Shown piece by piece: positions 50,135-64,000 of a stretch of 64,000 nucleotides of DNA. The DNA is from Tunicatimonas pelagia (lineage in GTDB: Bacteria; Bacteroidota; Bacteroidia; Cytophagales; Cyclobacteriaceae): assembly GCF_030506325.1 (NCBI RefSeq), contig NZ_CP120684.1, forward strand, positions 1-64,000. The letters are read 5' to 3'. The translations under genes were made by a program, and so were the position numbers. The stretch's first letter is position 1. Every line of letters begins with the position of its first letter. The notes beneath the pieces are model-generated. The model made no database searches and was not told the DNA's origin. It was given only the letters and a program-made list of their open reading frames with translations.

Positions 50135-50365
50135 ATATAGGTAACTCCCATATTCGTGTGTTTTTTCACGCTAAGGATTTAATGACGATGCAACTGCTAC
50201 GCCCTAATCCGATGCGGATCAATAATGTACTCACCGTAGAGAATAATATTCTCCCATCCAATTGGGCTGATATGTGTGATTAGTTCGTTATTTACTGTCA
50301 AACCGTCTTGCTGTTTAATGTCGATCAGAATACGGTTTATCTCTTTGGCCTGCCAGTAGATAATA
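50135..50365 (-). mobile_element. Tn3-family transposon end, left copy (231-bp direct repeat)
   Basis: Identical over 231 bp to 63763-63993. It contains a Tn3-type terminal inverted repeat at 50140-50175, from GGTAACTCCC to TTTCACGCTAAG; the ACGCTAAG inner end is the conserved Tn3-family box. The last codons of a transposase follow (50197-50364). Homology stops abruptly at 50366. The same 5 bases, ATATA, precede both inverted repeats. Confidence 0.85.
50197..50364 (-). pseudogene. tnpA: Tn3-family transposase (TnpA), C-terminal fragment
   Basis: About 55 codons ending at a TAG (50197-50199). The text, IIYWQAKEINRIL and then ITHISPIGWENIILYGEY, matches the C-terminus of Tn3-family TnpA, where HISPIGWE and LYGEY are conserved. 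Upstream of 50365 the frame meets a stop within a few codons and similarity ends, so this is a truncated remnant. Confidence 0.85.
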
Positions 50366-50532
50366 GGGTTCATCTACATAAAGGGACGGAATTATCGGTA
50401 GAAATAGGCGGGTTTTTGTCACTCTGATAGAACATAGTTAATCGCCCCTCACTAATTATATGAAAAATAGGATTCGGACTGTCAACAGAGTCTATACTTA
50501 ACTAGTGCTCACCCAAGAAGCTATATAAAGGC

Positions 50533-51018
50533 TTATTTTCCTGCGGTAATTAATCGAAATCTTTTAAATGATTTAAGGGGTTTTATCAACTGTACCAATG
50601 AATGGTGAGATTCTATGAGTAATACATTTTGATAGTCGTCCAACATCAATGATAGAATGGGAACATCCACAACTTGATCCATAATCCGGTATATAGCTAA
50701 ATTGGCAAAATGAAGTCTCAAATATCTAACCCACATTTTCTCATCTCGACGGGATAACGGATAACAGCGCTCATCGATTAATAATAAGGTAGTAGGAATT
50801 GCTAAGCATAAATCAGCAATTTGCTTAATCCGCCGATGGGTATCCGGCTGCCCATCGTCTATCAGAAAAATATGCTCAATACGCTCTTCGCCCTCAGGTA
50901 CTACCAGTGCTGGGCAAGCGAGATCATAGGGTAATTTGCTACCTGACTTTTTAATATACTTCTTGTAGTGGGTATTAGCTATAATCAGTAAGCTAGAAGA
51001 CTGAGCTTCCTGCTTCAT
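50533..51018 (-). CDS. Universal-stress-protein-like domain, downstream half of a split gene
   Basis: 161 aa. SSLLIIANTHYKKYIKKSGS followed by CPALVVPEGEERIEHIFLID resembles the middle of tandem Bacteroidota Usp proteins (the PVLVVPEG turn and the start of a second Rossmann-like domain, ending in LLIESHHSLV). It starts with an ATG directly after an in-frame TAA that ends the upstream 79-aa frame. The two together would make a 241-aa protein of about the right size. Usp proteins bind ATP and help survival under respiratory stress, which suits a nos operon. Confidence 0.55.
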   Translation of the reverse strand: MKQEAQSSSLLIIANTHYKKYIKKSGSKLPYDLACPALVVPEGEERIEHIFLIDDGQPDTHRRIKQIADLCLAIPTTLLLIDERCYPLSRRDEKMWVRYLRLHFANLAIYRIMDQVVDVPILSLMLDDYQNVLLIESHHSLVQLIKPLKSFKRFRLITAGK

Positions 51019-51258
51019 TTACTGGAAGCAGAAATTGGTACTACCATTTTGCGCTAGAGAAAAGTCATTGGCCAAATTGACAGATGGGAGGTGATGGTCG
51101 CTGAAATAAGCATCGAGAGGCGTAGATGGTAATCCCATCAAGTCTTCTACAGAAGAGCTACACACTAACTGATGCTGACCAGTACCAAAATAAAAAGTTG
51201 TAAGTGCTTCTACGGTTCCCGTCCGGTCCCGGCACCATACTATTCTTTTCCTGCTCAT
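51019..51258 (-). CDS. Usp-like N-terminal part, upstream half of a split gene
   Basis: 79 aa starting MSRKRIVWCRDRTGTVEALT, compatible with the first strand and helix of a Usp domain but poorly conserved. It is in the same frame as the following gene, separated only by one TAA (51019-51021). It could be a nonsense-mutated gene or two adjacent genes. Confidence 0.4.
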   Translation of the reverse strand: MSRKRIVWCRDRTGTVEALTTFYFGTGQHQLVCSSSVEDLMGLPSTPLDAYFSDHHLPSVNLANDFSLAQNGSTNFCFQ

Positions 51259-51337
51259 CGGTTAAAAAATTTGCTCTCGTTAAAAGTGGGAGTTTGAGCA
51301 TTCAAAAAAAATGATAAAAGTCAGGTTACCCCTTTTG

Positions 51338-52051
51338 TTAGTAGAGGTTCGCTATACGAACTAGTCCGGCAGGGTCTTCAATACGTATCTTTCGTCCCTG
51401 GGTGGAGATCAATTGGTCGCTTTTAAACTCATTTAGCAGGCGAATGAGTGTTTCGGTCGCTGTACCTATAATATTTGCCAGATCGTCTCGAGTGAGATTA
51501 ATTTCAATGCTACCGTTATCATGGGTATCCAAGCCGTAGGTGTCTTTAAGCTCGAGCAATGTAATTGCTAGGCGTTCTCGCACTGAACGTTGTGCCTGGT
51601 TCGTAATGTTCTCAGTCATCAGCCCGAGTTCTTGGCATACCTGCTTCATAATTTGCTGATTGAGCTGAGAGGATTCTTGCAGGGTCTGTAGAAATGTTGA
51701 TTTGGGAAGAAAGCAGATAGTGCACTCTTCCAGTGTCTCGGCTGAAACTCCGTAGCTCTCTTCTGCCAGCAAGGCTTTGTAGCCTAACAACCCCCCGTTG
51801 CGTGCGATACTGATAATCTGCTCCTTTCCTTCGTAACCCAACTTATAGACTTTTACTTTACCCTGATTAATGCAAAAAACCCCCAAAGGTCGAGTGCCTT
51901 CATGGAATAAGATTTGCCCTTTCTTGTAAACGGTGCACGACTTCCCCTTAGAAATAGCCGTGAGTTGGTGGCTGCATAACGAACTGAACGATGAGGTCCC
52001 CAAGGAGCGACAAGTTTGATAAGCGATAGAAGGACGAAGCGGCTTTCTCAT
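51338..52051 (-). CDS. Crp/Fnr-family transcriptional regulator
   Basis: 237 aa from the ATG at 52051 (MRKPLRPSIAYQTCRSLG); a longer frame to 52177 would overlap nosY and was rejected. The cyclic-nucleotide-binding fold is clear (YKKGQILFHEGTRPLGVFCI, VKVYKLGYEGKEQIISIAR) and the C-terminal helix-turn-helix reads LTRDDLANIIGTATETLIRL. Two or three cysteines near the N-terminus (Cys14, Cys25, Cys38) could hold an Fe-S cluster as in Fnr, but the spacing is not classic. Its position after nosY suggests it controls this island in response to oxygen or NO. Confidence 0.85.
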   Translation of the reverse strand: MRKPLRPSIAYQTCRSLGTSSFSSLCSHQLTAISKGKSCTVYKKGQILFHEGTRPLGVFCINQGKVKVYKLGYEGKEQIISIARNGGLLGYKALLAEESYGVSAETLEECTICFLPKSTFLQTLQESSQLNQQIMKQVCQELGLMTENITNQAQRSVRERLAITLLELKDTYGLDTHDNGSIEINLTRDDLANIIGTATETLIRLLNEFKSDQLISTQGRKIRIEDPAGLVRIANLY

Positions 52052-52064
52052 AACGTAATCACTT

Positions 52065-52832
52065 TCACATATCTTTTTGTAAAAACCGGCGGTGCACCAG
52101 ATAATAAGGAATAGCAATCCAGAGCAATAGCGCTGCCAGTGAGACAATAACCCCTCGGAAGCTGCCAAAAAAATCACGAAATAAGGCTCCTGATAATCCT
52201 AAAAGTGCTGAAGCTTCGGTTTTCATAATGATCGTAATGCGAGCGATGTCTATGGGGTTGAAGAACGATAGCGTGAGTACGCCTGGCTCAATCGGGTACT
52301 CGCCCAAGTGGTACATAAAGAACAGTAGTAACCCATCGTATACGAAGGCAAAGAACGCCCACAGTAACAGGGCTAATCCCATGCCACGGGCTTTGTCAGA
52401 TACAACAGTACTAATGAACAAGGCAATCGCTACAAAAACGAAGATGAGTAGCCCACCACTAAGTATAAGCAACAAACTCTCAGCAGCAGGATAGAATAAT
52501 AGTAGCGGCAAGCCAATACTTAGCAGAAATCCAGCTACAAGAGCTCCGCATAATCCTAGATAAAAGCCCCCGAGGACCGTAGCTCGGGCGATGGGTTGCG
52601 CCAGCAGCAATACGATAAAATCCTGGGAGTTGTAAAAGTAGACCACAGCAAATACTAAGGCAATGAGTGGCAAAGCAAATAACGTTACCTGCATAATAAT
52701 TAATAAAGCCTTTTCTGGCTGACTCTCCAGCATGAAGATACCCCAACCTACCGTGGCCAACAGCAGTACGTACCCCTGAATGAGCCGGTTCCGGAGTAGG
52801 TCACTAATGATGTATTGGCTTACTTTCTGCAT
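52065..52832 (-). CDS. nosY: NosY ABC transporter permease
   Basis: A 255-aa polytopic protein with six hydrophobic segments (for example YVLLLATVGWGIFML and LLLILSGGLLIFVFVAIAL), following nosF by overlap of 29 bp. With NosF it forms the transporter that supplies sulfur or energy for copper-site maturation of NosZ in the periplasm together with NosD. Assignment from topology and gene order is firm. Confidence 0.85.
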   Translation of the reverse strand: MQKVSQYIISDLLRNRLIQGYVLLLATVGWGIFMLESQPEKALLIIMQVTLFALPLIALVFAVVYFYNSQDFIVLLLAQPIARATVLGGFYLGLCGALVAGFLLSIGLPLLLFYPAAESLLLILSGGLLIFVFVAIALFISTVVSDKARGMGLALLLWAFFAFVYDGLLLFFMYHLGEYPIEPGVLTLSFFNPIDIARITIIMKTEASALLGLSGALFRDFFGSFRGVIVSLAALLLWIAIPYYLVHRRFLQKDM

Positions 52833-53547
52833 CGGGTTGTTTTTGGGTTAAGAGCCGGACGATGATTTTATTAAGCTGGGTTTCGGAAGTCTGTTTCCGC
52901 AGGGTCTCCATCGATTCAAAAAACTGCACTTGGCCCTCCATTAAATAAATTATCTGGGTGGCAATGTCGTCCAAATCGTTAAGAATGTGGGAAGTAACCA
53001 GCACTAGCTTTCCGGTCTGCACACTACGGTTGATCTTACTCTTCAGGCACTCATTGGATGGCGGATCCAGGGCGGCGGTAGGTTCATCCAGAATGATGAT
53101 GGGTGGATCAAATAAAAAGGCCAAAGCAGCACTTACCTGTTGCCGCATCCCCCCCGATAGCGAACCCAATGATTTGTGATGTATTTGCTCAATGCCAAAT
53201 TCTTCGTACAGCTCATTATCGTAATTACTTACATCCGCTCGCAACTGCTTGATCATAGTGAATAAATCTGCTACCCGCAGATGCTCAGGAAAGCGGCTTA
53301 ACTGGGGCATATAGCCGATGTCGCTGCGGTACTGATAGCCCGTTTGAGTGTTGTTCCCATTCACGGTAATTGTCCCCTCACCGGGTAGTACTAACCCTAA
53401 AATGGCTTTTATTAACGTGGTTTTACCCGACCCGTTCGGACCGATCATCGCTACGCATTGTCCGGTGCGGAGTTCTATCGATACCGAGCGAAGTACATGC
53501 TGCTGACCGTAGTTTTTACTTAGGTTTTCAATTTTGATCATAAGCAT
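52804..53547 (-). CDS. nosF: NosF ABC transporter ATPase
   Basis: 247 aa with a full set of ABC motifs: Walker A GPNGSGKTTLIKAILGL, signature LSGGMRQQVSAALAF and Walker B IIILDEPTAALDP, followed by the switch His in TSHILNDLDD. It pairs with NosY and works with NosD in assembling the CuZ centre. It overlaps nosD by 20 bp and nosY by 29 bp. Confidence 0.92.
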   Translation of the reverse strand: MLMIKIENLSKNYGQQHVLRSVSIELRTGQCVAMIGPNGSGKTTLIKAILGLVLPGEGTITVNGNNTQTGYQYRSDIGYMPQLSRFPEHLRVADLFTMIKQLRADVSNYDNELYEEFGIEQIHHKSLGSLSGGMRQQVSAALAFLFDPPIIILDEPTAALDPPSNECLKSKINRSVQTGKLVLVTSHILNDLDDIATQIIYLMEGQVQFFESMETLRKQTSETQLNKIIVRLLTQKQPDAESKPIHH

Positions 53548-54781
53548 AGGGCTGCATCTGAGGGTACTGATCAGTCAAGGTTGCCGGGATGATTGTGGGG
53601 AAAATCCGCTCGCTAAACTCCAATAGACTCACAAAGAAGCTATGCAGCATCAGCGTCGCCGCCGGAATCTGGTCGGTAATGCGAGCGAACAGGTTCACTG
53701 GGCGGTAGGGTTCGTCGCCGGAGCCATCTCGGTTTAGGTCGTAGCCCACGTAGCCGCTCCAGTAGTTGCGCTCATAGTGGTTATTGTTGTTTTGGGAGTT
53801 GGTGACTACCTCAAAGGTATTAGCCAGGAAATTATTGGCGAGCACTTCATTGTCCAGACTGTTGCCCTTCATATCCAGAGCGGTACCGTTCAATGAGAAC
53901 TGATTCTTCTTAATGATAATTCGGTTGGCACCTTCGGCCAGAATACCGATAGTATTTCGCACAAAGTAGTTGCCACTGATCTCTCCATCGCTGATTTCTT
54001 TTAGTAGTAAACCGTAGGAAGCCCCGCCCCAGTTATGGGAAAAGTGGTTATGCTGCATGCGTATTTCCCGGGAGAACATCACTGCCACTCCGGCTCCGTT
54101 TTCTCGGAATTCATTTGCTGAATACGCATCGTTGTTGGAAAACATAAAGTGCAAACCGTAGCGCAGGTTTCGGTAACTTTGATTATGGTGAATCTGGCTG
54201 TTATTCACAAACTCCAGATAAATACCATCGCGATGACCACTAAGCGTATTATGGGTAATCTCCAGATAATCGCCCTTCCAAACGTGAATCGCATTACCTG
54301 CCGAGGCTTCATCGTCGGCCTGATCTACAATATAATTATTCACTACCTGATAGTGGGTAGCGTATTCCAGATATACTCCAAAGAAACAGTTGATAATCTC
54401 GTTGTTACGGATACTACCGTAGTGGCCCTGACGTACCTTGATGGCGGCTAGTTCCTTTAAAAAGCTAACCCCTACATTCTGGAGTGTAAACCCTTCAATC
54501 ACCACAGAATCGGCCATCACCACAAATAACTCAACCGCCTGATGCTTCGCATCGAGTTGGGGTTTTCCTTCGCCAATCAGGTGCAGCGGTTTATCAATGA
54601 CGATAGAATGCTGCGCGTAAAGTCCAGGCCGTACCAGAACGGTATCATGAAGATTAGCTTCCCGGATTGCTTCCTGAATGATTTGGAATGACTCGTTTAT
54701 TCCTACCACTAATGTTCGGGCATTAGCTGAAGGGATTAGCCAGGCGCTTAGCATAATTATCAGCACGATGCAGATTCTCAT
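53528..54781 (-). CDS. nosD: NosD periplasmic copper-site assembly protein
   Basis: 417 aa with a signal peptide (CIVLIIMLSAWLIPSANA). The body is a parallel beta-helix of short repeats (for example VEGFTLQNVGVSF, IHHNQSYRNLRYGLHFMFSN, NVFANTGILAEGANRI-like rungs with many Asn). This is the NosD/carbohydrate-binding sugar-hydrolysis fold. It docks with NosFY for CuZ maturation. Gene order nosL-nosD-nosF-nosY is typical of clade II clusters. Confidence 0.92.
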   Translation of the reverse strand: MRICIVLIIMLSAWLIPSANARTLVVGINESFQIIQEAIREANLHDTVLVRPGLYAQHSIVIDKPLHLIGEGKPQLDAKHQAVELFVVMADSVVIEGFTLQNVGVSFLKELAAIKVRQGHYGSIRNNEIINCFFGVYLEYATHYQVVNNYIVDQADDEASAGNAIHVWKGDYLEITHNTLSGHRDGIYLEFVNNSQIHHNQSYRNLRYGLHFMFSNNDAYSANEFRENGAGVAVMFSREIRMQHNHFSHNWGGASYGLLLKEISDGEISGNYFVRNTIGILAEGANRIIIKKNQFSLNGTALDMKGNSLDNEVLANNFLANTFEVVTNSQNNNNHYERNYWSGYVGYDLNRDGSGDEPYRPVNLFARITDQIPAATLMLHSFFVSLLEFSERIFPTIIPATLTDQYPQMQPYAYDQN

Positions 54782-54782
54782 A

Positions 54783-55217
54783 TCACTTCCGATTCTTCAA
54801 TAACAAACGCACTTCGTTCCAGGAAAGTAGCTGGGTATTTGATGGCAAGTCTTGCGTAGTAGGACGGTAGAATGCTGCTAAGTTGGCTCCCATGGGGCTA
54901 CGAAACTCCGGTGAAATAACAAACACCAGCGAATCCATTGGATATAACTGTTTCGGATTGTTATGAGCCACTGCTAGTAGCATTTGATACCGGGTAGATT
55001 CTTCAGCCAATTGATTCACGACACATTCAGTAGCATCGTACTTATAGATTCTCCCTTTGTCGGTAATCAGCTCCGCCCCAAACTTAGGATCGGCTATCGA
55101 CATCTTGCAGTAGTGGCACTGGTCTTTCCCAAAGGCAATAGGTTCTGGTTCAGTCTGACAACTGGCAAGTAGCCCTACTATAATCCCTATCATCCACTTC
55201 TTGAGCAAATCAAACAT
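54783..55217 (-). CDS. nosL: NosL copper chaperone lipoprotein
   Basis: 144 aa with a lipobox (IIVGLLASCQTEPEP) and the metal-binding motif DQCHYCKMSIADPKFGAEL, characteristic of NosL, which delivers Cu(I) to apo-NosZ. Its start overlaps the upstream membrane gene by eight bases and its stop is two bases before nosD. Confidence 0.92.
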   Translation of the reverse strand: MFDLLKKWMIGIIVGLLASCQTEPEPIAFGKDQCHYCKMSIADPKFGAELITDKGRIYKYDATECVVNQLAEESTRYQMLLAVAHNNPKQLYPMDSLVFVISPEFRSPMGANLAAFYRPTTQDLPSNTQLLSWNEVRLLLKNRK

Positions 55218-55836
55218 GCACTTTCTCTTTACGGATACTTACCCAGGTGGCCAGTGCTGCTAGTAAAATAGATAGTGTCATGAAGATCGTACCCATACGC
55301 GGATAAGACTTCACGTAAAAGTTAAGCAAGTCTTTCTCGCCTATTAGCGGGGGCATATAGGTCATGCCGGGTACCTTAATCGGAGCGTTTGGGTCCAGAT
55401 TATGACCGTAGTCGTACATCCAAAGATAAAAATCGTAGACCCCCAAAATGGCAAGCACCACCATGATAACCAACCAAGTGGCGTAACCCCAGGTTTTGTT
55501 CAGCAGCACCGTTCCTACTCCCAAAGCCATCATACCGTAGACGACGTAAGGGAAGTATACAAGTTCGGGAATAGAATCTGGCTCAATGTACTGCATCCCG
55601 ATATAGTGGTTCAGAATATTAATGTTCTGAATGATACTATCAGTGCCATCATCTCCTGAAAAGCGGTCGATCCAAATATTGAGGCGTAAGCCACCGGGAA
55701 ACTGAGCGGCCTCTAGCGTGATCTGCCATAAAGGGAATAAAAATAACCCCCCTAGCAGTATCACCCCCAGTAACATAAGCCACCGAGCGGCACCCCGTTG
55801 AGTAGTAATCCGCTGTGACTGGTTTAGTAAGTTCAT
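55210..55836 (-). CDS. Nos-cluster membrane protein, possibly NosB-like
   Basis: 208 aa from the ATG at 55836 (MNLLNQSQRITTQRGAARWL). A longer frame to 55899 would run through a strong hairpin, so it was rejected. About five membrane segments are visible (WLMLLGVILLGGLFLFPLWQ, VVYGMMALGVGTVLL, and a last one near IFMTLSILLAALATWVSI). Genes for such membrane proteins follow nosZ in clade II clusters and are often called nosB. The function is unclear, perhaps electron transfer or metal supply to NosZ. Confidence 0.7.
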   Translation of the reverse strand: MNLLNQSQRITTQRGAARWLMLLGVILLGGLFLFPLWQITLEAAQFPGGLRLNIWIDRFSGDDGTDSIIQNINILNHYIGMQYIEPDSIPELVYFPYVVYGMMALGVGTVLLNKTWGYATWLVIMVVLAILGVYDFYLWMYDYGHNLDPNAPIKVPGMTYMPPLIGEKDLLNFYVKSYPRMGTIFMTLSILLAALATWVSIRKEKVHV

Positions 55837-55859
55837 AAATTGGGTGTAGAAAATGATGA

Positions 55860-55894
55860 AGAAACCCTTCTTACTTAGATAAAGAAGGGTTTCT
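55860..55894 (-). terminator. Strong hairpin between nosZ and the next gene
   Basis: Perfect 13-bp arms (AGAAACCCTTCTT) with a 9-base loop lie 19 bp after the nosZ stop and 24 bp before the next start. There is no long T-run, so it may be an attenuator or a processing and stability hairpin favouring nosZ over downstream genes. Confidence 0.6.
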
Positions 55895-55912
55895 CTCAAG
55901 AATTAGACGCTA

Positions 55913-57937
55913 TTAATCATCAACCCGCTGGGCAAGTTGCTGTTCAGCTTGTTCTCGCATATTGGTGGCCGTGGTATTTTCATTGTTGAGTCCCCACTTC
56001 AGCGGCACATCCGAATTAGCTGGGGATACCCGTACGTAGCCCGACATCTCTTGGTGTAGCGCCGAGCAGAAATCAGTGCAGTAGAAAGCAAATACTCCTG
56101 GTTTGAAGGGCTTCCACTTTAGGGTGCGAGTCTGTCCGGGCATGACCAACAGCTCCGCATTAGTAGCCCCTTGTACCGCAAAACCGTGCGGTACATCCCA
56201 GTCCTGCTCCAGGTTCGTTATGTGGAAATACACTTCATCGTCCATCTTGATGCCTTCAATGTTATCGGGAGCCAGGTGACTACGAATAGCCGTCATATAT
56301 ACGTGTACCTCTTTACCTTCCCGCTCTACGCGGGCTTGTCCTTCCCCTTTCGCCGCTCGGGGGTGCCCATTATCTTCAATCCGGTAGAACTTCTTTACGT
56401 TAGGCACAATTTTCCCCGCCGAAATAGCCTGAGCGTAGTGTGGCTCGCCTTTGGTAGGGAAATCCAGCACCAGCTTCATTTTTTCGCCGCTAATATCAAA
56501 CAACTGAGCACTGTGGGCTAATTCCGGCCCGGTAGGCAGATAACGGTCTTTGGTGATTTTGTTCATGGCTACCAGGTACTTTCCTTCCGGCTTGCGCGTT
56601 TCCCCTCCCGGAATCACCAGGTGACCGGGTGAATAAAAAGTAGATTGACGATCTAGCACTTCCAGACTTTCTACGTCCCACTTTACTACTTCCGAGGAGA
56701 TAAAGAATGTCGTATAAGCGTTGCCTTTTCCGTCGAACTCAGTGTGCAGTGGACCTAAGCCGGGCTTCTGCAAAATGCCGTGCAAGCCCGACTCGTAGTT
56801 GATGATCGGAATGCCATTGATGTCTCCCGCGAAGTCTTCGCTCTCAATGGCGGCCATCAGCTTGTCAAACGAGTAAATAGACATGTCGGCGGATAGCTTA
56901 CCGTTACCCACAATGAACTCTCCGGTAGGATCTACGTCGCAGCCATGAGGCGACTTAGGCACCGGAATGAAGTATACCATACCGGGACAATCCTGCGGGT
57001 TCAGGATAGTGGTTTCGGTTACTTCAGTAGAATTGACGATGCTGGTGCTCTCGTCCATCAGGTTATGATAAAAGGAAGTTTCCCGAGTTTGGCCTTTTCC
57101 CTGCTCTAGGTATTCTTCCGCTTTTTTCCAGTTCACAATGGCCAGCAGGTCTTTATCCTTCTGAGAAGCATTCACTTCCAGCAGCGTGTGTGCCTGCTCG
57201 GAGTTGTAGGTGGTCAGAAAGCTCCAGCCGTGGGATTTTCCTTTACCGTTTCGAGCTAAATCATAATTATAGCCGGGCATCTCGATTTGAAACGCTAGTT
57301 CCATATGCCCTTCTTCCGGGTCAACCGATACGTAGTTGATCAATCCCTTGAAGTTCTCCTGATAGGTATCAATGCCTACATCTTCTTGAGGAATAGGCAC
57401 GCTAAAACGAGTACCCGAAACCAGATATTCCGAGTTTTCAGTAATAAAGGGTGCGCAGTGCAGTCCGGCTACATCCGGAATTTCCAGAATTTCTACCGTT
57501 TCAAAGGTTGTGAGGTCTACTCGGGCAATACGGGGGGTGTTGTTTCCATTGACAAACAGCCAGCGTCCGTCAAACTCGCCATCGGTTTGCGAGAGTTCAA
57601 TGTGGTGAGAATCGTCCCAGGGTACTTCACCATAAGATGTATTGAACATCGCTTTGGTTTCTTCGCTGTAGCCGTAGCCGTTCTCCGGATACTTAGAAAA
57701 TACCGGAATTTCCTTGAGCAAACGGCCTGAGGGTAACCCGTAGGCCGTCACTTGTCCGCTAAAGCCGCCCGACATAAAGGCGTAGAACTCGTCGTACTCA
57801 CCGGGCGGCACGTAGGCCTGTTGGGCGGCATCGCCCTCTACAATGGTCTGGGTCGTTCGTTGGGAGCAGTCGGTCAGAAAGACAGCTCCCAGTACAAGAA
57901 GGAAAAATAAGGTAAGGAAAATAGTGTTTGTTTTCAT
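55913..57937 (-). CDS. nosZ: Nitrous oxide reductase NosZ, clade II type
   Basis: 674 aa; reduces N2O to N2 in the periplasm. The leader is a Sec-type signal with a lipobox-like cysteine (LVLGAVFLTDCSQRT), not a twin-arginine signal, which with the DDSHHIE motif marks the clade II form. The seven-bladed propeller region includes GLHCAPF, GNGKLSADMSIYSF and HGCDVDPTGEF. The C-terminal cupredoxin domain has the CuA site: FYCTDFCSALHQEMSGY (first Cys near residue 618), with both Cys, His and Met ligands present. It follows a cytochrome c gene by seven bases, the probable electron donor. No nosR is present. Confidence 0.96.
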   Translation of the reverse strand: MKTNTIFLTLFFLLVLGAVFLTDCSQRTTQTIVEGDAAQQAYVPPGEYDEFYAFMSGGFSGQVTAYGLPSGRLLKEIPVFSKYPENGYGYSEETKAMFNTSYGEVPWDDSHHIELSQTDGEFDGRWLFVNGNNTPRIARVDLTTFETVEILEIPDVAGLHCAPFITENSEYLVSGTRFSVPIPQEDVGIDTYQENFKGLINYVSVDPEEGHMELAFQIEMPGYNYDLARNGKGKSHGWSFLTTYNSEQAHTLLEVNASQKDKDLLAIVNWKKAEEYLEQGKGQTRETSFYHNLMDESTSIVNSTEVTETTILNPQDCPGMVYFIPVPKSPHGCDVDPTGEFIVGNGKLSADMSIYSFDKLMAAIESEDFAGDINGIPIINYESGLHGILQKPGLGPLHTEFDGKGNAYTTFFISSEVVKWDVESLEVLDRQSTFYSPGHLVIPGGETRKPEGKYLVAMNKITKDRYLPTGPELAHSAQLFDISGEKMKLVLDFPTKGEPHYAQAISAGKIVPNVKKFYRIEDNGHPRAAKGEGQARVEREGKEVHVYMTAIRSHLAPDNIEGIKMDDEVYFHITNLEQDWDVPHGFAVQGATNAELLVMPGQTRTLKWKPFKPGVFAFYCTDFCSALHQEMSGYVRVSPANSDVPLKWGLNNENTTATNMREQAEQQLAQRVDD

Positions 57938-57944
57938 GGTAGTA

Positions 57945-58445
57945 TTAGATTTGGTTTGCTGCTTGATCTTTTTCGCCTACGGTCTCTACGTCGTTTTTAC
58001 GCATGAACTCCAGCAGAGCGCGAGCATCGCCAATGGAGACTCCCTGGTTAGGCATTCGGGTTAAACATTCTTCTAATAATTTCTGGGCTTGTGGGTCTTC
58101 GGCCAGCATAACATCTACATTGGTGATCATATTCATGATCCACTCGGGGCGACGCTTATTAGTGACACCCGCCCAGCCGGGACCTACTACCCGCTGGTCG
58201 GTGAGCTTATGACAGGCTGAGCATTTCATTTCGTAAATGGCTTTGCCTGTGGTAATCATGCTTTCTTCCAGCGGGTCGGTAAGATTCACTTCTTTCACCT
58301 CTCCAATTCCTTTAGGGTCAGCTTTGGGTGGTTCAGCCTCTTGAGCAGTCGCAGCCGGTGATTGTGAGGCTGTTTCACCCCCCCCTCCGCAGGAAATAAG
58401 AAAGACAAAGGATAACCCGCCCAGGGCGATAAGTAATTGTTTCAT
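57945..58445 (-). CDS. c-type cytochrome of the nos cluster
   Basis: 166 aa from the ATG at 58445 (MKQLLIALGGLSFVFLISCG); an upstream in-frame ATG at 58508 was rejected because the lipobox leader starts here. A lipobox (FLISCGGGG) anchors it. A single class I heme motif CSACHK lies near residue 72 with downstream Met ligands (CLTRMPNQG likely). It is the first gene of the nosZ operon and probably passes electrons to NosZ. Confidence 0.88.
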   Translation of the reverse strand: MKQLLIALGGLSFVFLISCGGGGETASQSPAATAQEAEPPKADPKGIGEVKEVNLTDPLEESMITTGKAIYEMKCSACHKLTDQRVVGPGWAGVTNKRRPEWIMNMITNVDVMLAEDPQAQKLLEECLTRMPNQGVSIGDARALLEFMRKNDVETVGEKDQAANQI

Positions 58446-58480
58446 AAGACTAGATTTTGAAGAATAGATAATTAAAATTG

Positions 58481-58492
58481 TTGAGTGATCAA
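58481..58492. promoter_or_regulatory. TTGA-N4-TCAA palindrome upstream of the nos operon
   Basis: TTGAGTGATCAA lies 36 bp upstream of the cytochrome c start. Fnr-type sites are TTGAT-N4-ATCAA (TTGA-N6-TCAA), so this is two bases short. With a Crp/Fnr gene in the same cluster it is a plausible but weak operator. Confidence 0.3.
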
Positions 58493-58529
58493 TGACATAC
58501 ATTGACATTGGTGTTAAGTATGATTTACA

Positions 58530-59801
58530 TCACGAGCTGTCGAGCAAATTTGACCGGACAAAACCGACTAGAATAACGGTTAACGCAGCTGGAAACAAGG
58601 CAGTCACGCCAAACAGAATCTCGTAGTAGTAGGTTACAAACCCTTGCCGTAGCCATAGCAGCGTACCTTGACCAAATAATACCAGTTCAGATAAAATGAA
58701 CGCTGCCAGAAGCAATAGCCAACCCGCTTGCGCCAGCGTATTCTGGGGTAGTAACCCGCTCTTAAGCAATAGGCTCACTCCGGTCAGGGTAATAGCCCCT
58801 AGTGTGATTAGATGGATAAAACCGATCACATAATTACGAATGGTGTAAGAAATCTCGGCCACAGCCGGTAGCGCCACGGCAGTTTGTACCGTTACTTTCA
58901 GTAGCAGGCAGAGCACTCCAAATAAGAATAGCATGTCCGTCCAGTCGTCGGGGCGTTTGAACGGATTAGCGGCGATAAACACGGGTCGCAAAATCAGATA
59001 AAAAGCCACTACTTGAAGTAACACTCCCAGCGTATTTAGGTAGAAAATAACCGAGAGTGGAGTGCTCCAGGTGACACTCAAGGCATATGTTAATAACAAT
59101 GAGGCCTGTAGTAGCCAGAACCCGGTAGTGGAAACAGCCACAGATTTACCACTCCGTTTAATATGAAATAGCCACAATCCTACGATCGCGTAAGTAAGCC
59201 AACCGTTGAACTGGAAATGTAGAAAAAACTGGATACTAGCAAAGTACAGGGGATGCAGTTTTCCCAGTAGCGCACTTACTGGCCCAATAGCCCAGAGTCC
59301 TAGCGTGGATACCAACAGCCAGTAGATACTCCACCGGACAAAGCGCCTGTGCACTCCAGGAGGCTGAGCGGCTAAGTCTTGTAGAAAATAATAAGCAAAT
59401 GCGTAGGCCGATAGCAGATGAACGGCTGAAAAGGAGATGCTGTAGAGACCATAGCCTTGGTAAAGAAAGAAAACGGCCATTCCAACCGCCGAAATCATAT
59501 TCAACCCCAACAAGTAGCGATACTTGGTCAGCCACCGGGAATGCTGGAGTAGCAAAAACAGTAAAGCACCGCTTACTAGTGGATACGCCCAGCCCAATAA
59601 TGCCACGTGCGAATGGGCGTGTAACAGATGCTTGTATTCCAAAAACGGTACTTCATTGACAAAGTAGTAGCGCATCAGGGTTCCAAATATCGCAGCCAGC
59701 CAGAAAAAGAAGACGGCTGATCCCATCCAGTGGCGTATAAAGCGAGCAGAAAAGCGTGGCTGGGTAGGTGTAGAGCGATATGGTTGGACGGTCTTAATCA
59801 T
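58530..59801 (-). CDS. Heme-copper-oxidase-like/NnrS-like polytopic protein
   Basis: 423 aa with 11-12 membrane segments. Histidines lie in HLLHAHSHVALLGW (residues about 58-71) and in AVHLLSAYAFAYY and FFLHFQFNGW, giving a pattern like heme-ligating His in subunit I of cbb3-type oxidases and NO reductases. NnrS proteins have a similar layout and help against nitrosative stress. I cannot separate these families by reading. The start overlaps the RIC stop by four bases, so the two form one transcript. Confidence 0.65.
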   Translation of the reverse strand: MIKTVQPYRSTPTQPRFSARFIRHWMGSAVFFFWLAAIFGTLMRYYFVNEVPFLEYKHLLHAHSHVALLGWAYPLVSGALLFLLLQHSRWLTKYRYLLGLNMISAVGMAVFFLYQGYGLYSISFSAVHLLSAYAFAYYFLQDLAAQPPGVHRRFVRWSIYWLLVSTLGLWAIGPVSALLGKLHPLYFASIQFFLHFQFNGWLTYAIVGLWLFHIKRSGKSVAVSTTGFWLLQASLLLTYALSVTWSTPLSVIFYLNTLGVLLQVVAFYLILRPVFIAANPFKRPDDWTDMLFLFGVLCLLLKVTVQTAVALPAVAEISYTIRNYVIGFIHLITLGAITLTGVSLLLKSGLLPQNTLAQAGWLLLLAAFILSELVLFGQGTLLWLRQGFVTYYYEILFGVTALFPAALTVILVGFVRSNLLDSS

Positions 59802-60520
59802 TTAAAGGTGAAATCAGCAAAGAGTCGCTGAGCTTGGGGGAAAAGAATATTATTTTCCAGATGAATATGTCGGTGTAGATCAGCCTCAAATTCCTGCAAT
59901 AGTGCGAACGTCACTTGGTAGGTCTGACAACCATCTTCCGGGGGAGTATAATGATTGCTCAACTGGGCAATCTTGCTGAATCGTTCTCCTTCCGTTTGAT
60001 GCTCCGCTTCCATCATCCGGATTGGATTGTCAATTTCTCCAAAGTGCGGCCGGGCTAGTGGGTAGTTTTTTTCTTGTGACTCCACCATCGCCCGGATGTA
60101 AGGGAACAGAATAAGCTCCTCTTTCTTCAAATGCGCTAATAAATGCTCGCTGCCCTCAAAAAATAGGGTCTTTATCTCGTGTAGCTCGGGGTGTTGCTGT
60201 CCATGCCTCTTTACCAACTTTTCCAGGTAGGCTTTTAGGGCGGGTACTGTGGCTCGCAAGTAAGCATGGTGCTCATCCACAATAGTATCAATCAACTGGG
60301 GCAGTCCGAGCAGATGATCCTGATGAGCGTTGGGCAATTGCAGGGCTTCTTCTAATTCGCTTACCAATATTTCAGGAGCCAGTTGCTGGCTTTGGCAAGC
60401 TTCTTCCAAGGTAACTCTCCCTCGGCAACAGAAATCGATACCATACGCAGTGAGCACCTGAGCAGTACGGTAGTTTTTGGCAACGATGTCTCCTACGTTG
60501 GTTTGCAATAGCGATTCCAT
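59798..60520 (-). CDS. RIC/ScdA iron-sulfur cluster repair di-iron protein
   Basis: 240 aa. The N-terminal DUF542/ScdA_N domain has the hallmark AYGIDFCCRG (Cys31, Cys32). It is followed by a hemerythrin-like bundle with His and Glu ligands (VDEHHAYLRA, EGSEHLLAHLKKEE, MEAEHQTEGERF, HRHIHLENNILF). RIC proteins repair Fe-S clusters hurt by NO or peroxide. The gene lies between the Rrf2 regulator and the NnrS-like gene. A 24-bp palindrome resembling NsrR sites sits just before its start. Confidence 0.93.
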   Translation of the reverse strand: MESLLQTNVGDIVAKNYRTAQVLTAYGIDFCCRGRVTLEEACQSQQLAPEILVSELEEALQLPNAHQDHLLGLPQLIDTIVDEHHAYLRATVPALKAYLEKLVKRHGQQHPELHEIKTLFFEGSEHLLAHLKKEELILFPYIRAMVESQEKNYPLARPHFGEIDNPIRMMEAEHQTEGERFSKIAQLSNHYTPPEDGCQTYQVTFALLQEFEADLHRHIHLENNILFPQAQRLFADFTFK

Positions 60521-60525
60521 AATTA

Positions 60526-60549
60526 AAGATTTAAAGACCTTTATATCTT
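60526..60549. promoter_or_regulatory. 24-bp NsrR-like operator before the RIC gene
   Basis: AAGATTTAAA-GACC-TTTATATCTT is an inverted repeat with two mismatched pairs. The half-site AAGATNNA(T/A) resembles the AAGATGCATTT consensus of NsrR. It covers the RIC ribosome-binding region and lies 16 bp after the rrf2-type gene's stop, so it could repress RIC independently. Confidence 0.5.
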
Positions 60550-60564
60550 CAATTGCTTAAAATT

Positions 60565-60993
60565 TTACACTTTTAAATAGTAGTGCCCAAGCAATAAGCC
60601 CTCTTTCACTTCATCAATCGTGGTTGAAATAAGCACTCCCGCCAGGTGATCACGAACCGCCTTAAACTTATCGTGTACGGGGCAGGGGCAGCTCTCCGAG
60701 CACTCAGCTAATCCTAATACGCATTTAGTGAAAATTCCTTCACCATCAATAGCAATGATGATTTCATGCAAGGTAATAGCCCGGTGGTTAGGTAGCTGAA
60801 ATCCGCCGCTAGGGCCTCGTAGTGACCGGATCAACCCTTGGCGAGTTAGTCGCTGCAATACCTTAGCAGTAAATGCTTCCGGACCATCAATTTCTTGTAC
60901 GATCTCGCGGAGTCCAATCCAGCGCCCCTGCTGTTGATCGGTCGCCAGATAGATCATAATTTTTAACGCTATTTCACCAGCTCGGGAAAACAT
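60565..60993 (-). CDS. Rrf2-family regulator, NsrR-like
   Basis: 142 aa. The winged-helix pattern RQGLIRSLRGPSGGFQL is that of Rrf2 proteins. Residues 91-104 contain CVLGLAECSESCPC, with the C-x6-C-x3-C spacing near the three Cys that hold the NO-sensitive [4Fe-4S] cluster of NsrR, plus one extra Cys. Such regulators repress NO-response genes until NO damages their cluster. The gene is 44 bp upstream of the RIC gene, which has an NsrR-like site. Confidence 0.88.
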   Translation of the reverse strand: MFSRAGEIALKIMIYLATDQQQGRWIGLREIVQEIDGPEAFTAKVLQRLTRQGLIRSLRGPSGGFQLPNHRAITLHEIIIAIDGEGIFTKCVLGLAECSESCPCPVHDKFKAVRDHLAGVLISTTIDEVKEGLLLGHYYLKV

Positions 60994-61078
60994 ATCACAT
61001 CAAATTTAGTAGAGGAATAATTAAAGACAAATTAATCCGAAATTATTTTTTTTAGTAAATTACTTCTTTGTACAGTAT

Positions 61079-61699
61079 ATGGAGCTTATACCCGAAGGAT
61101 CTTATTTCGATGATTTAAATAATCAAGGGTTGTCCGATAGAGAAAGGGACTTCTTTGAAATAATCGCACATGTATTTAATACTATTGAATTTACTAATCT
61201 TGAATTGGTGAAGGCTTTGGATTCTAATACGCCGAATGTATCCGAGGTTGCAATGAGCAGAGTATGGAGCTTAATTGACAGCTATTATCGTCTTTATAAG
61301 CTACTTACTAAAGCCCCTAGAATAAAGAAAAAAGCCCCTTTTGTTCAAAAATTCGTTAGAAAACTAGCGGATGTTGAGGCTATACGAAATTTTCATCAGC
61401 ATATAGATAATGAAACAGATACACTTTACAATAACAATCTACCTGTTCTGGGTCATATATCTTGGGCTAAAATTTTAGATGAAGGTAAGCGTATTCAAAT
61501 ACATGTCATGATACCATGCTCATTAAAAGATGATATGTTGACCACGGGTGTAAATCCATTGGGTCTAGTAGCAAGAAATAAGATCGACTTTATAACCTAC
61601 TTTATCAACGATCTGTCAATTAACCTTGCCGATCTTGCATATGCCTCATTTGACTTCATAAGGGAGCTAGAGAAGTTTTTAGCCGAGGGAGATGAGTAA
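61079..61699 (+). CDS. Uncharacterised protein with HEPN-like RNFHQH motif
   Basis: 206 aa, all helical in feel, with no signal or membrane span. The segment EAIRNFHQHIDNETD contains an Rx4H pattern of the kind found in HEPN-fold RNases and RNA-binding proteins, but this short motif alone is weak. It is divergent from the NsrR-like gene. Its place in the NO-response region may be chance. Confidence 0.5.
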   Translation: MELIPEGSYFDDLNNQGLSDRERDFFEIIAHVFNTIEFTNLELVKALDSNTPNVSEVAMSRVWSLIDSYYRLYKLLTKAPRIKKKAPFVQKFVRKLADVEAIRNFHQHIDNETDTLYNNNLPVLGHISWAKILDEGKRIQIHVMIPCSLKDDMLTTGVNPLGLVARNKIDFITYFINDLSINLADLAYASFDFIRELEKFLAEGDE

Positions 61700-62137
61700 A
61701 TGGATTTCGGGATCGTCCTGTAACGCAAGCTTAGTTCACAGAACATAGGCAGTGACCGACTTTTAATAGACAACTACTTAGCCCTTATTTTACCGGGCGT
61801 CTTCCACCTTTTTAACGGGGTGGGCAGGGCCGCCCAGGCAAACTATTCCAAGAAAGATTAAGTCCCTAGATACTCAGGTATTCTTGTCCGGTAGTTGAAA
61901 TAAGCTGATTAAAGTAATATTAAAAGATGATATTTATCATCCTCTGATTAACTTAACAGCCGTAATTTTGAATTATTCTAAATAATGTCCCTCATGAGGC
62001 TATCGACTAACATGTACCAGCCCTAATGCAGTACCACGACTGAAGTGGTTTGAATGTGAAAGGTTCTGTTCAAATGTTTACAAACTAATCCATTCGCTTG
62101 AAAGGGTCATATAACCCGGTAACCGACTTGAAAATCT
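61700..62137. other. Intergenic region upstream of the haemoglobin operon
   Basis: About 440 bp without a gene. A perfect inverted repeat GATGATA-TT-TATCATC is at 61926-61941, about 200 bp before the haemoglobin start. The rest shows nothing that I can name. Confidence 0.5.
61926..61941. promoter_or_regulatory. Palindrome, possible Rrf2/NsrR-type operator
   Basis: GATGATATTTATCATC, extended to AAGATGATATTTATCATCCT, has perfect 7-bp arms and the AAGATG start of the NsrR half-site. It is shorter than the classical 11-1-11 site and rather far from the start codon. Confidence 0.45.
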
Positions 62138-62521
62138 ATGCAAAATAGCAAACAGGACATAAGCACCGAAAAGGATATTGAACTGATGGTGGATTCATTT
62201 TATGCCAAAGTGAACCATGATCAGCTACTATCCTTTGTATTCAATGATTTTTCAAAAGTAGATTGGAACAAGCACCTACCCAAGATGTACCGATTTTGGA
62301 ATACGCTAATTCTTAATAAACAATCGTACAAAGGCAATCCCTTTGCGGCTCACGTGCCTCTGCTGGTAGACAAAACGCATTTTGATCGTTGGGTGCAGCT
62401 TTTTGAAGAAAATATGGATGAGCTTTTTGCAGGTGATGTAGCGGAACAAACCAAATTAAGAGCAAGGTCAATCGCTCATATCTTTCAGAGTAAATTAGAA
62501 CATATAAATCAAGAAAAATGA
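62138..62521 (+). CDS. Group III truncated haemoglobin
   Basis: 127 aa. The sequence has the trHb fold pattern: DIELMVDSFYAKVNHDQLL (B helix region), MYRFWNTLILN, then NPFAAHVPLLVDKTHFDRW, where the proximal His and following Phe lie. Group III proteins (Ctb type) bind oxygen or NO and can detoxify NO. It heads a three-gene run and overlaps the cupin gene by four bases. Confidence 0.88.
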   Translation: MQNSKQDISTEKDIELMVDSFYAKVNHDQLLSFVFNDFSKVDWNKHLPKMYRFWNTLILNKQSYKGNPFAAHVPLLVDKTHFDRWVQLFEENMDELFAGDVAEQTKLRARSIAHIFQSKLEHINQEK

Positions 62522-62859
62522 AAACAGCTAACCTGTATCAAGACATCCGATACGACGAAAGCAAACCTATTGCTTCTGTCTTGTTTGAAACCGATTTTAC
62601 CAAGGAAATCCGAATTGCTATGCAACACGGAACTGTAATGAAAGAACATAAAACTTCTTTTCCCATAGTGGTAGAAGTGCTGGAAGGTAGTATTGATTTT
62701 GGCATGCAGCAACAGACCAAACACTTAGTAAAAGGAGACCTAATTGCGTTGGAAGGCAACGTACCCCACGATTTACAAGCCACTGAAAACAGTATTATTC
62801 GGCTTACTTTGACCAAGTACGACAATGCTAAACGGGTAAAGCAAGTTACTGAGAGCTAA
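62518..62859 (+). CDS. Cupin-domain protein
   Basis: 113 aa. The fold is a single cupin barrel, with metal-type residues in motif 1 (MQHGTVMKEHKTSFPIVVEV, ending VLEGSIDFG) and motif 2 (LVKGDLIALEGNVPHDLQA). Substrate unknown. It is translationally coupled to the haemoglobin gene (ATGA at 62518-62521). Confidence 0.8.
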   Translation: MKTANLYQDIRYDESKPIASVLFETDFTKEIRIAMQHGTVMKEHKTSFPIVVEVLEGSIDFGMQQQTKHLVKGDLIALEGNVPHDLQATENSIIRLTLTKYDNAKRVKQVTES

Positions 62860-62871
62860 ATATTCCAGAAA

Positions 62872-63648
62872 ATGGGAAACAAAACAATTGATACCAAACA
62901 GGGACATTGGATACTGGCTAAGATGGGCAAAAAGGTACTGCGTCCCGGAGGAAAAGAACTTACCCAAAAACTCGTTCAGAACCTGAAAATAAATCCAGAA
63001 GACGACATTGTAGAGTTTGCCCCAGGGCTGGGATTTACGGCTTCCATTGCCCTAGAGTCCAACCCTAAAACCTATACGGGTATTGAACTCAATGAAGAAG
63101 CCGCCAGTATTCTTCGCAAGACCATAAAGGGGAAAAACCGAAAGATAATCATAGGCAATGCGGCAAATTCTACCTTGAGCGACAGTACGTACAACAAAGT
63201 ATATGGCGAGGCGATGCTCACCATGCAAGCTGACCATAGGAAATCGGAGATTATTAAAGAAGCCTATCGAATTCTTAAAACAGAAGGTTTGTACGGTGTA
63301 CACGAACTAGGACTACAGCCTGATGATATTTCGGAAGAAAAGAAAGCGGAAATACAGCGAGCATTGGCCCAAGTAATTAAAGTAAATGCTAGACCGTTGA
63401 CTGTAACCGAATGGCGTAATCTTCTGGAAAAAGAAGGCTTCAACGTTATCAAAACCGAAACCAGTCCCATGCACCTGCTTGAACCCCAAAGGATGATTGA
63501 TGATGAAGGTTTTTTCAGAACAGTAAAAATAGCATTCAATATTCTTACCCATCCTCAGGAAAGGAAACGCATTTTAGCGATGCGGAAAGTATTCAGCAAG
63601 TACCAAAACCATTTAAATGCGATAAGTATAGTTGTTGAAAAGAAATGA
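62872..63648 (+). CDS. Class I SAM-dependent methyltransferase
   Basis: 258 aa. SAM-binding motif I is DDIVEFAPGLGFTASIAL, motif post I is YTGIELNEEAA and a later acidic strand reads YNKVYGEAM. An ArsM or UbiE-like C-methyltransferase fold is likely. Its substrate is unknown. Cupin and methyltransferase after a haemoglobin suggest a small-molecule stress pathway, but this is unproved. Confidence 0.8.
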   Translation: MGNKTIDTKQGHWILAKMGKKVLRPGGKELTQKLVQNLKINPEDDIVEFAPGLGFTASIALESNPKTYTGIELNEEAASILRKTIKGKNRKIIIGNAANSTLSDSTYNKVYGEAMLTMQADHRKSEIIKEAYRILKTEGLYGVHELGLQPDDISEEKKAEIQRALAQVIKVNARPLTVTEWRNLLEKEGFNVIKTETSPMHLLEPQRMIDDEGFFRTVKIAFNILTHPQERKRILAMRKVFSKYQNHLNAISIVVEKK

Positions 63649-63762
63649 TCTGTACCTAATTGACGATCAGTATGTTTGAACAAGGCTCTTCCGCGCAGAG
63701 TCTGGTTTGACTTTTAAAAAACCGAGAGTCCGGTTTGGGTTGTGAACTGCTCTAAAAACTTC

Positions 63763-63993
63763 ATATAGGTAACTCCCATATTCGTGTGTTTTTTCACGCT
63801 AAGGATTTAATGACGATGCAACTGCTACGCCCTAATCCGATGCGGATCAATAATGTACTCACCGTAGAGAATAATATTCTCCCATCCAATTGGGCTGATA
63901 TGTGTGATTAGTTCGTTATTTACTGTCAAACCGTCTTGCTGTTTAATGTCGATCAGAATACGGTTTATCTCTTTGGCCTGCCAGTAGATAATA
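63763..63993 (-). mobile_element. Tn3-family transposon end, right copy (231-bp direct repeat)
   Basis: Identical to 50135-50365. The inverted repeat runs from 63768 to 63803 (from GGTAACTCCC to CACGCTAAG). Unlike the left copy, the transposase frame stays open to the window edge, so a longer or complete transposon probably extends to the right. Confidence 0.85.
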
Positions 63994-64000
63994 CTAGCCA
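63825..64000 (-). CDS. tnpA: Tn3-family transposase TnpA, partial (continues past window end)
   Basis: The last 58 or so codons of a transposase whose 5' end lies beyond the window. The frame continues upstream of the repeat (ASIIYWQAKE) as expected for an intact gene, in contrast to the truncated left copy. Tn3 transposases are DDE enzymes acting by replicative transposition. A TAG lies at 63825-63827. Confidence 0.85.
   Translation of the reverse strand, partial: ASIIYWQAKEINRILIDIKQQDGLTVNNELITHISPIGWENIILYGEYIIDPHRIRA

Follow-up and report, generated by a model that had tools for sequence, protein, structure and literature searches.

A Nitrous-Oxide Reductase Island as a Probable Passenger Between Tn3-Family Ends on a Plasmid-Like Contig of Tunicatimonas pelagia

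Introduction

Nitrous oxide (N2O) is a greenhouse gas, and nitrous-oxide reductase (NosZ) is the known enzyme for its removal; to our knowledge, movement of nos gene clusters is rarely seen. Here, we describe a nos island at positions 50366–63762 (13,397 bp) of contig NZ_CP120684.1 of Tunicatimonas pelagia. The first 64,000 bases of this 97,746-bp contig, hereafter C2, constitute the window, i.e., the whole stretch of DNA analyzed, and coordinates beyond 64000 are those of C2. The nos cluster itself is standard in the family, and the island probably reached this plasmid-like contig through Tn3-family events and is now a passenger in a three-repeat arrangement resembling that of Tn1721. The Tn3 element with ends at the island is designated TnA, and a second Tn3-family element, with the terminal repeat IR-B, is designated TnB. 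Clade II NosZ is patchily distributed in the family (80 of 148 sampled genomes, E ≤1e-50). Here, the junctions are resolved at the single-base level, with a glutaminase scar on the donor side, a transposon edge common to congeners, and an intact transposase gene adjoining the cluster; therefore, the movement of nos becomes testable in a defined element.

The comparisons involve the genome of T. pelagia itself (G000; 7.29 Mb in 4 contigs, chromosome contig C1), the congeners G071, G155, and G125, and G134 from another genus of the same family (3 contigs). C2 encodes a TraG-type ATPase, a coupling protein (T4CP), and matches to the Rep3_C replication initiator; the sole profile match of its putative relaxase is DUF5712, and no overlap of up to 2000 bp was found between its ends. 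This plasmid-size contig with conjugation genes is presumably a plasmid. An earlier interpretation of the window from its letters (the sequence-only reading) had spoken of a conjugative plasmid, a designation that the contig may deserve.

Three-Repeat Arrangement of TnA

Two segments, 50135–50365 and 63763–63993, are identical over 231 bp on the same strand, lie 13,628 bp apart, and constitute the sole direct-repeat family of at least 25 bp reported for 40000–64000 (seed 14). As the sequence-only reading had proposed, each carries a 38-bp Tn3-type inverted repeat (IR) and the 3′ end (~55 codons) of a Tn3 transposase gene (tnpA); the further inverted end that it sought to the right of 64000 is present as a third copy in the same genome, inverted, at C2:67867–68097. 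The 38-bp IR is exact in all three copies, in agreement with the ~38-bp terminal repeats of the Tn3 family, and it can be aligned with the repeats of TnA relatives. Copies 1 and 2 are direct and surround the island, copy 3 is inverted, and one intact tnpA lies between copies 2 and 3. The layout is of the Tn1721 type, comprising two direct IRs around a passenger, a third one inverted, and a truncated tnpA at the outer end. The larger unit spans 18 kb (50138–68094) with nos as its passenger, and the minor unit 4.3 kb (63766–68094). The edge of TnA lies 3 bp inside each 231-bp repeat, the common ATA being flank: the glutaminase gene glsA of G071 reads CTTCATA followed by CCACG, and C2 reads CTTCATA followed by TAGG. 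Because this comparison fixes the junction, the TnA repeat starts at TAGG.

The continuation of tnpA beyond 64000, the absence of which the sequence-only reading had named as evidence against itself, was found as an intact gene. Its product has the length (~950–1000 amino acids, aa) and the Tn3 DDE domain of Tn3-family transposases, and we take its motifs SSSDG, YTDTHG, and RELGR to be the sites holding the catalytic DDE residues. Residues 7–962 align with the Tn4430 transposase (PDB 7qd8). A second copy of tnpA, which lacks its 5′ part and starts at residue 538, points to the third TnA end, and the minor unit contains inverted arms of 1350 bp (63763–65112 and 66748–68097) that are 100% identical and separated by a 1635-bp spacer. 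The resolvase that had likewise been sought there was not found: besides tnpA, 63766–68094 holds no open reading frame (ORF) longer than 110 aa, and no resolution module (tnpR/res) was detected in the unit.

Relatives of the TnA transposase were found at six loci in a collection of genome contigs (genome_contigs), of which four are near full length (49–56% identity; three in metagenome-assembled genomes, MAGs, of Chloroflexota and one in a Neisseriaceae MAG) and two are partial (71% and 68%). Two of the Chloroflexota elements (L065 and L066; transposases 55–56% identical) have repeats beginning TGGGTAYCTCCC at both ends and measure 3.3–3.8 kb, with no nos gene between the ends in their ORF lists; one of the two presumably has a resolvase-like ORF, and L066 has no ORF of at least 150 aa besides tnpA. 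At E ≤1e-100, TnA was detected in 4 of the 395 phylum-sample genomes (its own, one at 43%, and two at 27–28%). TnA is probably a recent arrival in this family, because only its own genome among 295 family genomes has it at the same threshold. Among plasmids, the DNA of TnA matched only in scraps covering 2–5% of the query, and its protein matched at least 5000 records, all at <60% identity (~31% for the best among the matches listed). Neither the exact 38-bp IR of TnA nor the core of IR-B occurs in any viral contig. Separately, a 38-bp TnA-like end (84%) lies within a short ORF on the chromosome (G000 C1:1128935–1128972, L007), with resolvase-like ORFs nearby at 1128219 and 1135406 and no TnA transposase there.

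Left Edge and the Terminal Repeat of TnB

The left TnA copy had been noted as truncated, which is correct, and the cut is not random, as the next base starts the terminal repeat of another Tn3-family element; the remnant ends at most 1 bp from the outer edge of IR-B. The ~36 bp with which the island opens are found again at other places in the genus. A 3,976-bp contig of G125 (L071) carries IR-B at both contig ends, a 1031-aa Tn3 transposase (DDE_Tnp_Tn3), and a resolvase-domain protein; the IR-B of C2 differs by two mismatches from the IR of this TnB copy. G155 has at least part of a TnB relative (85% over residues 1–762). The island begins at IR-B in C2, G071, and G155, and the outer flanks differ, being tnpA of TnA (TAATA) in C2 and a cut IS110-type gene (PF01548) in G071 and G155. 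As the same base (±1) with two different flanks is unlikely to arise otherwise, this edge points to transposase action on IR-B. Furthermore, IR-B copies lie beside other genes, with no partner in the 5–12 kb inspected, at G155 C356:398 and G000 C1:6398106.

C2 also contains a degenerate Tn3-type repeat at 1425–1460 (− strand), 26/36 identical to its IR-B and with 11 mismatches to the G125 and G071 versions; none of 100 Markov surrogates in either of two sets reached ≤11 mismatches to IR-B relatives. It was considered as the right partner of IR-B and set aside, its flank AATCT not pairing with TAATA.

Right Edge and the Congeneric Island

At its right edge, the island ends in a remnant of glsA cut by TnA. 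The gene is whole (PF04960) beside nos in G071, where the shared region ends on the right; 99/100 bp of the remnant region are identical between C2 and G071, and with this G071 flank as a DNA query, no further glsA was detected in G000. A whole gene cannot have come from a cut one; hence, an arrangement like that of G071 gave rise to the one on the plasmid. The NosZ of G071, encoded on a 359,851-bp contig (C59), agrees with that of C2 in 99.9% of residues, and G071 matches C2 50366–61050 at 92.8% and 62130–63765 at 96.9%, with a further 80 bp matching at 80% in the gap; past the TnA edges, no match was found in the 100 kb compared. As the region to the left of nos in G071 (165–196.7 kb) is collinear with G000 C1:6.70–6.735 Mb at 68–85%, the site in G071 is a chromosomal context. 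G155 is 99.7–100% identical to G071 over pieces of the nos region, 70–82% over chromosome pieces, and 89% in one more piece; this pattern could reflect recent exchange or mis-binning, and G155 was therefore not relied on.

A third, unrelated Tn3-family element, TnC, lies at C59:222.2–230.4 kb of G071, 5.5 kb beyond the right-hand limit of the shared nos region, with a resolvase (PF00239), a transposase split into two overlapping pieces, and ends reading GGTCTGGCAACTATAC...; it is partly present in G155 as well. The distance from the shared region to its transposase is ~11 kb.

Nos Clusters in the Family

The surroundings of nosZ (20 kb on each side) were surveyed in 20 of the 80 genomes with NosZ, chosen for long contigs and not at random, and with G071 not included. 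NosD and the cytochrome were present in all 20 and the iron-sulfur repair protein RIC in 13, and neither C2-type conjugation proteins (six queries) nor Tn3 transposases (TnA and TnB queries) were found in any of the 20 at E 1e-8. The same queries did detect divergent conjugation genes and TnC in G071. This TnA element did not create the island, because G071 has the island with no TnA ends and none of the 20 surveyed loci showed a Tn3 transposase within 20 kb. TnA flanks or acquired a pre-existing island, the left boundary of which belongs to another Tn3 lineage. The sequence-only reading had the island carried or copied by a Tn3 element and regarded its occurrence on chromosomes devoid of the repeats as counter-evidence. 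It stands insofar as the 18-kb unit could transpose, and fails insofar as TnA is not the creator, no target duplication accompanies the unit, and just such an occurrence is found in the chromosomal context of G071.

In G134, contig C3 (153,649 bp) carries nosZ, and a tra module lying ~4 kb away is collinear with the C2 one (VirB4 62%, TraN 71%). Between 28 and 120 kb (L103–L110), it also encodes a NorB-type reductase, a flavohaemoglobin-type protein, a molybdopterin oxidoreductase, and ORFs that we assume to be oxidase-like, and no Tn3 transposase was matched by the TnA and TnB queries. G134 C3 is possibly a respiratory conjugative element; should it be a plasmid, for which its size and gene content speak, C2-related conjugative elements carry nos at least twice in the family, once without TnA.

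Origin of the Arrangement

In the course of events that we consider probable, a TnB-type transposase would have used IR-B in an insertion or an adjacent deletion that placed the island against a TnA copy, with the joint at TAATA. The right side of the island would have been replaced through another TnA in combination with a deletion or recombination. By analogy, TnA likely works like Tn1721: its transposase could replicatively move either the 4.3-kb unit (copies 2 and 3) or the 18-kb nos unit (copies 1 and 3), whereas copies 1 and 2 could recombine and thereby excise the island as a circle. In the absence of a TnA resolvase, cointegrates would require a host or foreign recombinase; unresolved cointegrates would be replicon fusions and could themselves bring nos to a chromosome. 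A bolder claim appears doubtful to us, namely that clade II N2O reduction is cargo of Tn3-family ends in this family, with two unrelated Tn3 lineages whose ends are nested (IR-B inside TnA) having carried nos between congeneric chromosomes and a conjugative plasmid; if true, N2O respiration in this family would be a transposable trait and not a slowly inherited one.

Several results weigh against a transposition history. Tn3-family target duplications measure 5 bp, sometimes 6 bp. The outer flanks of the TnA ends, read inwards, are GTATA (copy 1), TCATA (copy 2), and CTATA (copy 3; TATAG as the right flank). Comparison by eye, with repeat starts tried at GG, AGG, TAGG, and ATAGG, revealed no 5-bp target duplication shared by any two TnA ends, copies 1 and 3 having at most the 4-bp TATA. 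A 6-bp duplication TATATA of copies 1 and 3 needs a repeat start at GG, which glsA rules out. A target duplication can be lost by later rearrangement. As neither a resolvase nor a 5-bp target duplication was found, movement of the whole 18-kb unit is unproven. Reconstruction of an empty site by joining 50134 to 68098 yielded a joint crossed only by short ORFs (45 and 73 aa), with no recognizable gene restored. Expression of tnpA is doubtful because the right inverted arm begins 13 bp upstream of its start codon, leaving only that much upstream sequence of its own. No right partner of IR-B was found in G071 C59:165001–359851 (best candidate, 13/36 mismatches) and no convincing one in C2, and the TnB transposase query retrieved only other Tn3 transposases (27–30%) in G000 and G071. 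The G071 site is itself rearranged, with flanks corresponding to positions near 6.7 and 1.14 Mb of the chromosome of T. pelagia (a tra-like region at 237.5–245 kb matches C1:1.143–1.151 Mb at 77%); therefore, G000 offers no simple empty site.

Moreover, the island is a mosaic. Between C2 and G071, synonymous divergence (dS) is 0.02–0.04 in the methyltransferase and cupin genes (methyltransferase 0.02), 0.08–0.31 from nosZ to crp (nosZ 0.10), and 0.38–0.86 from the cytochrome to the globin gene, with 0.65 and 0.86 in two genes of 58–61 kb; the identity drops sharply near 58.2 kb. Five chromosomal genes to the left of nos in G071 have a dS of 0.64–1.63, a range that includes the values 0.65 and 0.86. 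A single recent transfer therefore does not explain the whole island, and more than one recombination event is needed; judging from these divergences, some parts were exchanged long after the species split, and others perhaps not.

These results bear on the rival explanations. The island may have come as a TnB transposon with IR-B at both ends and nos as its passenger, TnA having merely removed the right half. IR-B marks the left edge in C2, G071, and G155, TnB is complete in G125 with a partial relative in G155, partnerless IR-B copies lie beside other genes in G000 and G155, and TAATA, the target, is rich in A and T, a common property of Tn3 targets; however, no right IR-B was found within 159 kb rightwards in G071, and we regard this origin as rather unlikely. 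TnA may instead be a late bystander that only edited the edges of an island brought by homologous recombination or by the integration and excision of a larger conjugative element. The missing TnA target duplications and right IR-B are consistent with this, as are the conjugation-type genes of G071, ~27–32 kb past the shared region on its right side, and the unrelated 153.6-kb contig of G134, where nos lies near a C2-like tra module with no TnA or TnB transposase match. By contrast, the left edge at IR-B with different flanks argues for transposase action at least once at that end, and the tra set of G071 is unlike that of C2 (VirB4 40%, vs. 62% for G134), and the bystander account appears unlikely to us.

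An assembly artefact of a repeat-rich plasmid, to which the 100% identity of the arms and the lack of overlapping C2 ends would be congenial, is very improbable: the genome is assembled in 4 contigs, the arms have different flanks and adjoin an intact tnpA, and the left remnant stops at the IR-B edge, a biologically meaningful base that no assembler would pick. Our preference stays with Tn3-family events having brought a pre-existing island into the present three-repeat arrangement.

Comparison with Known Systems

Tn1721, according to passages of PMC5736529, has three 38-bp IRs, two of them direct around tet, with a truncated transposase, and is movable as a whole or as Tn1722. The arrangement in C2 is similar in the direct IR pair around a passenger, the third IR inverted beyond the minor transposon, and the truncated outer transposase end. 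It differs from what those passages describe in that the passenger is nos and not tet, all three IRs are identical, the left end is cut at a foreign Tn3 repeat, the minor unit contains inverted arms of 1350 bp and lacks a resolvase, and 5-bp duplications are missing. Two Tn3-derived ends can also mobilize DNA that lacks its own transposase (TIME-COMP; passages of PMC4133298). The likeness to C2 lies in DNA between two Tn3-type ends, in the same or opposite orientation, and in ends near other genes that appear partnerless; unlike TIME-COMP as characterized there, the transposase gene of TnA is present here, and for IR-B none was found in the same genome.

NosZ matches occur in 144 of 72,556 plasmid records, the closest being that of Hymenobacter sp. 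DG25B (NZ_CP010056), likewise of Bacteroidota. Its plasmid shares ric, crp, Sec-type nosZ, a membrane-protein-sized ORF, nosL, nosD, and ABC genes with C2; unlike C2, it is typed non-mobilizable, its NosZ is 64.7% identical, and no feature among the 17 in the 19.3-kb stretch inspected carries a transposase annotation. In the alphaproteobacterial Sulfitobacter 3SOLIMAR09, plasmid p1 carries nosZDFYL flanked by transposases and integrases (passages of PMC13386836, which name neither the family of these elements nor a mechanism); the likeness to C2 is that of plasmid-borne nos with mobile-element flanks. The remark in the sequence-only reading that mobile nosZ on Bacteroidota plasmids was not known to be described goes too far, the Hymenobacter plasmid nos being public and the transposase-flanked Sulfitobacter one published. 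Plasmid-borne nos is already public, and the Tn3-bracketed layout is a variant on a known theme; no Tn3-bracketed nos cluster was found in the openly licensed PMC literature (titles and abstract starts) among the matches listed. The passages of PMC10989939 on Thermus report no nosZ, and this source was not used.

Gene Content of the Island

The island contains a clade II nos cluster, with a Sec-type NosZ accompanied by nosL, nosD, and ABC genes (Table 1). The nosZ gene is open over its whole length and is the sole copy found in the genome. A full cluster with NO-response genes had been said to occupy the 13.4 kb between the repeats; the cluster is indeed there, and the nos/NO genes proper fill only ~51.3–61.0 kb, followed by a 206-aa ORF and the globin, cupin, and methyltransferase genes.

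Table 1. Features of the nos island and its TnA flanks in C2.
Feature	Position	Strand	Remarks
Truncated left TnA end	50138..50365	+	228 bp; IR 50138–50175 and last ~55 tnpA codons (read on −); outer flank GTATA
IR-B, terminal repeat of TnB	50366..50401	+	36 bp; faces into nos island; joined to TnA tnpA at TAATA
Two ORFs, 161 and 79 aa	50533–51258	−	no Pfam match
Crp/Fnr-family regulator	51338..52177	−	
NosY, ABC permease	52065..52832	−	ABC2_membrane_2; named from cluster position
NosF, ABC ATPase	52804..53547	−	ABC_tran; named from position
NosD	53528..54781	−	TIGR04247
NosL lipoprotein	54783..55217	−	PF05573, 25.1 bits (cut-off 24)
NosB-like membrane protein	55210..55899	−	no Pfam match, no NCBIfam match near cut-off; named from position
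NosZ, Sec-dependent (clade II) nitrous-oxide reductase	55913..57937	−	TIGR04246, 903 bits (cut-off 625)
c-type cytochrome	57945..58508	−	
423-aa membrane protein	58530..59801	−	no Pfam or NCBIfam match; presumably NnrS-like
RIC/ScdA iron-sulfur repair di-iron protein	59798..60520	−	
Rrf2-family regulator	60565..60993	−	presumably NsrR-like
206-aa ORF	61079–61699	+	no Pfam, NCBIfam, or PADLOC match
Globin, cupin, and methyltransferase genes	62138..63648	+	also right of nos in G071 and G155
glsA, last 16 codons and stop	63714..63765	−	cut by TnA end
Second TnA end and start of complete TnA copy	63766..64000	+	IR 63766–63803
TnA tnpA	C2:63825–66734	−	969 aa, intact; NF033527, 733 bits (cut-off 500); PF01526
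Third TnA IR	C2:68057–68094	−	unit ends at 68094

The 161- and 79-aa ORFs correspond to one 245-aa ORF in G071, so that this leftmost island gene is split in C2. At the position of the 206-aa ORF, G071 instead has two other ORFs, which we take to be receptor-like and Fur-like. Beyond the window, to the right of TnA, C2:68920–78675 (L005:6920–16675) is a defence-like block, with a weak match to a type III restriction enzyme, matches to ShosT (143 bits) and ShosA (240 bits), a UvrD-type helicase, and a type II/III methyltransferase.

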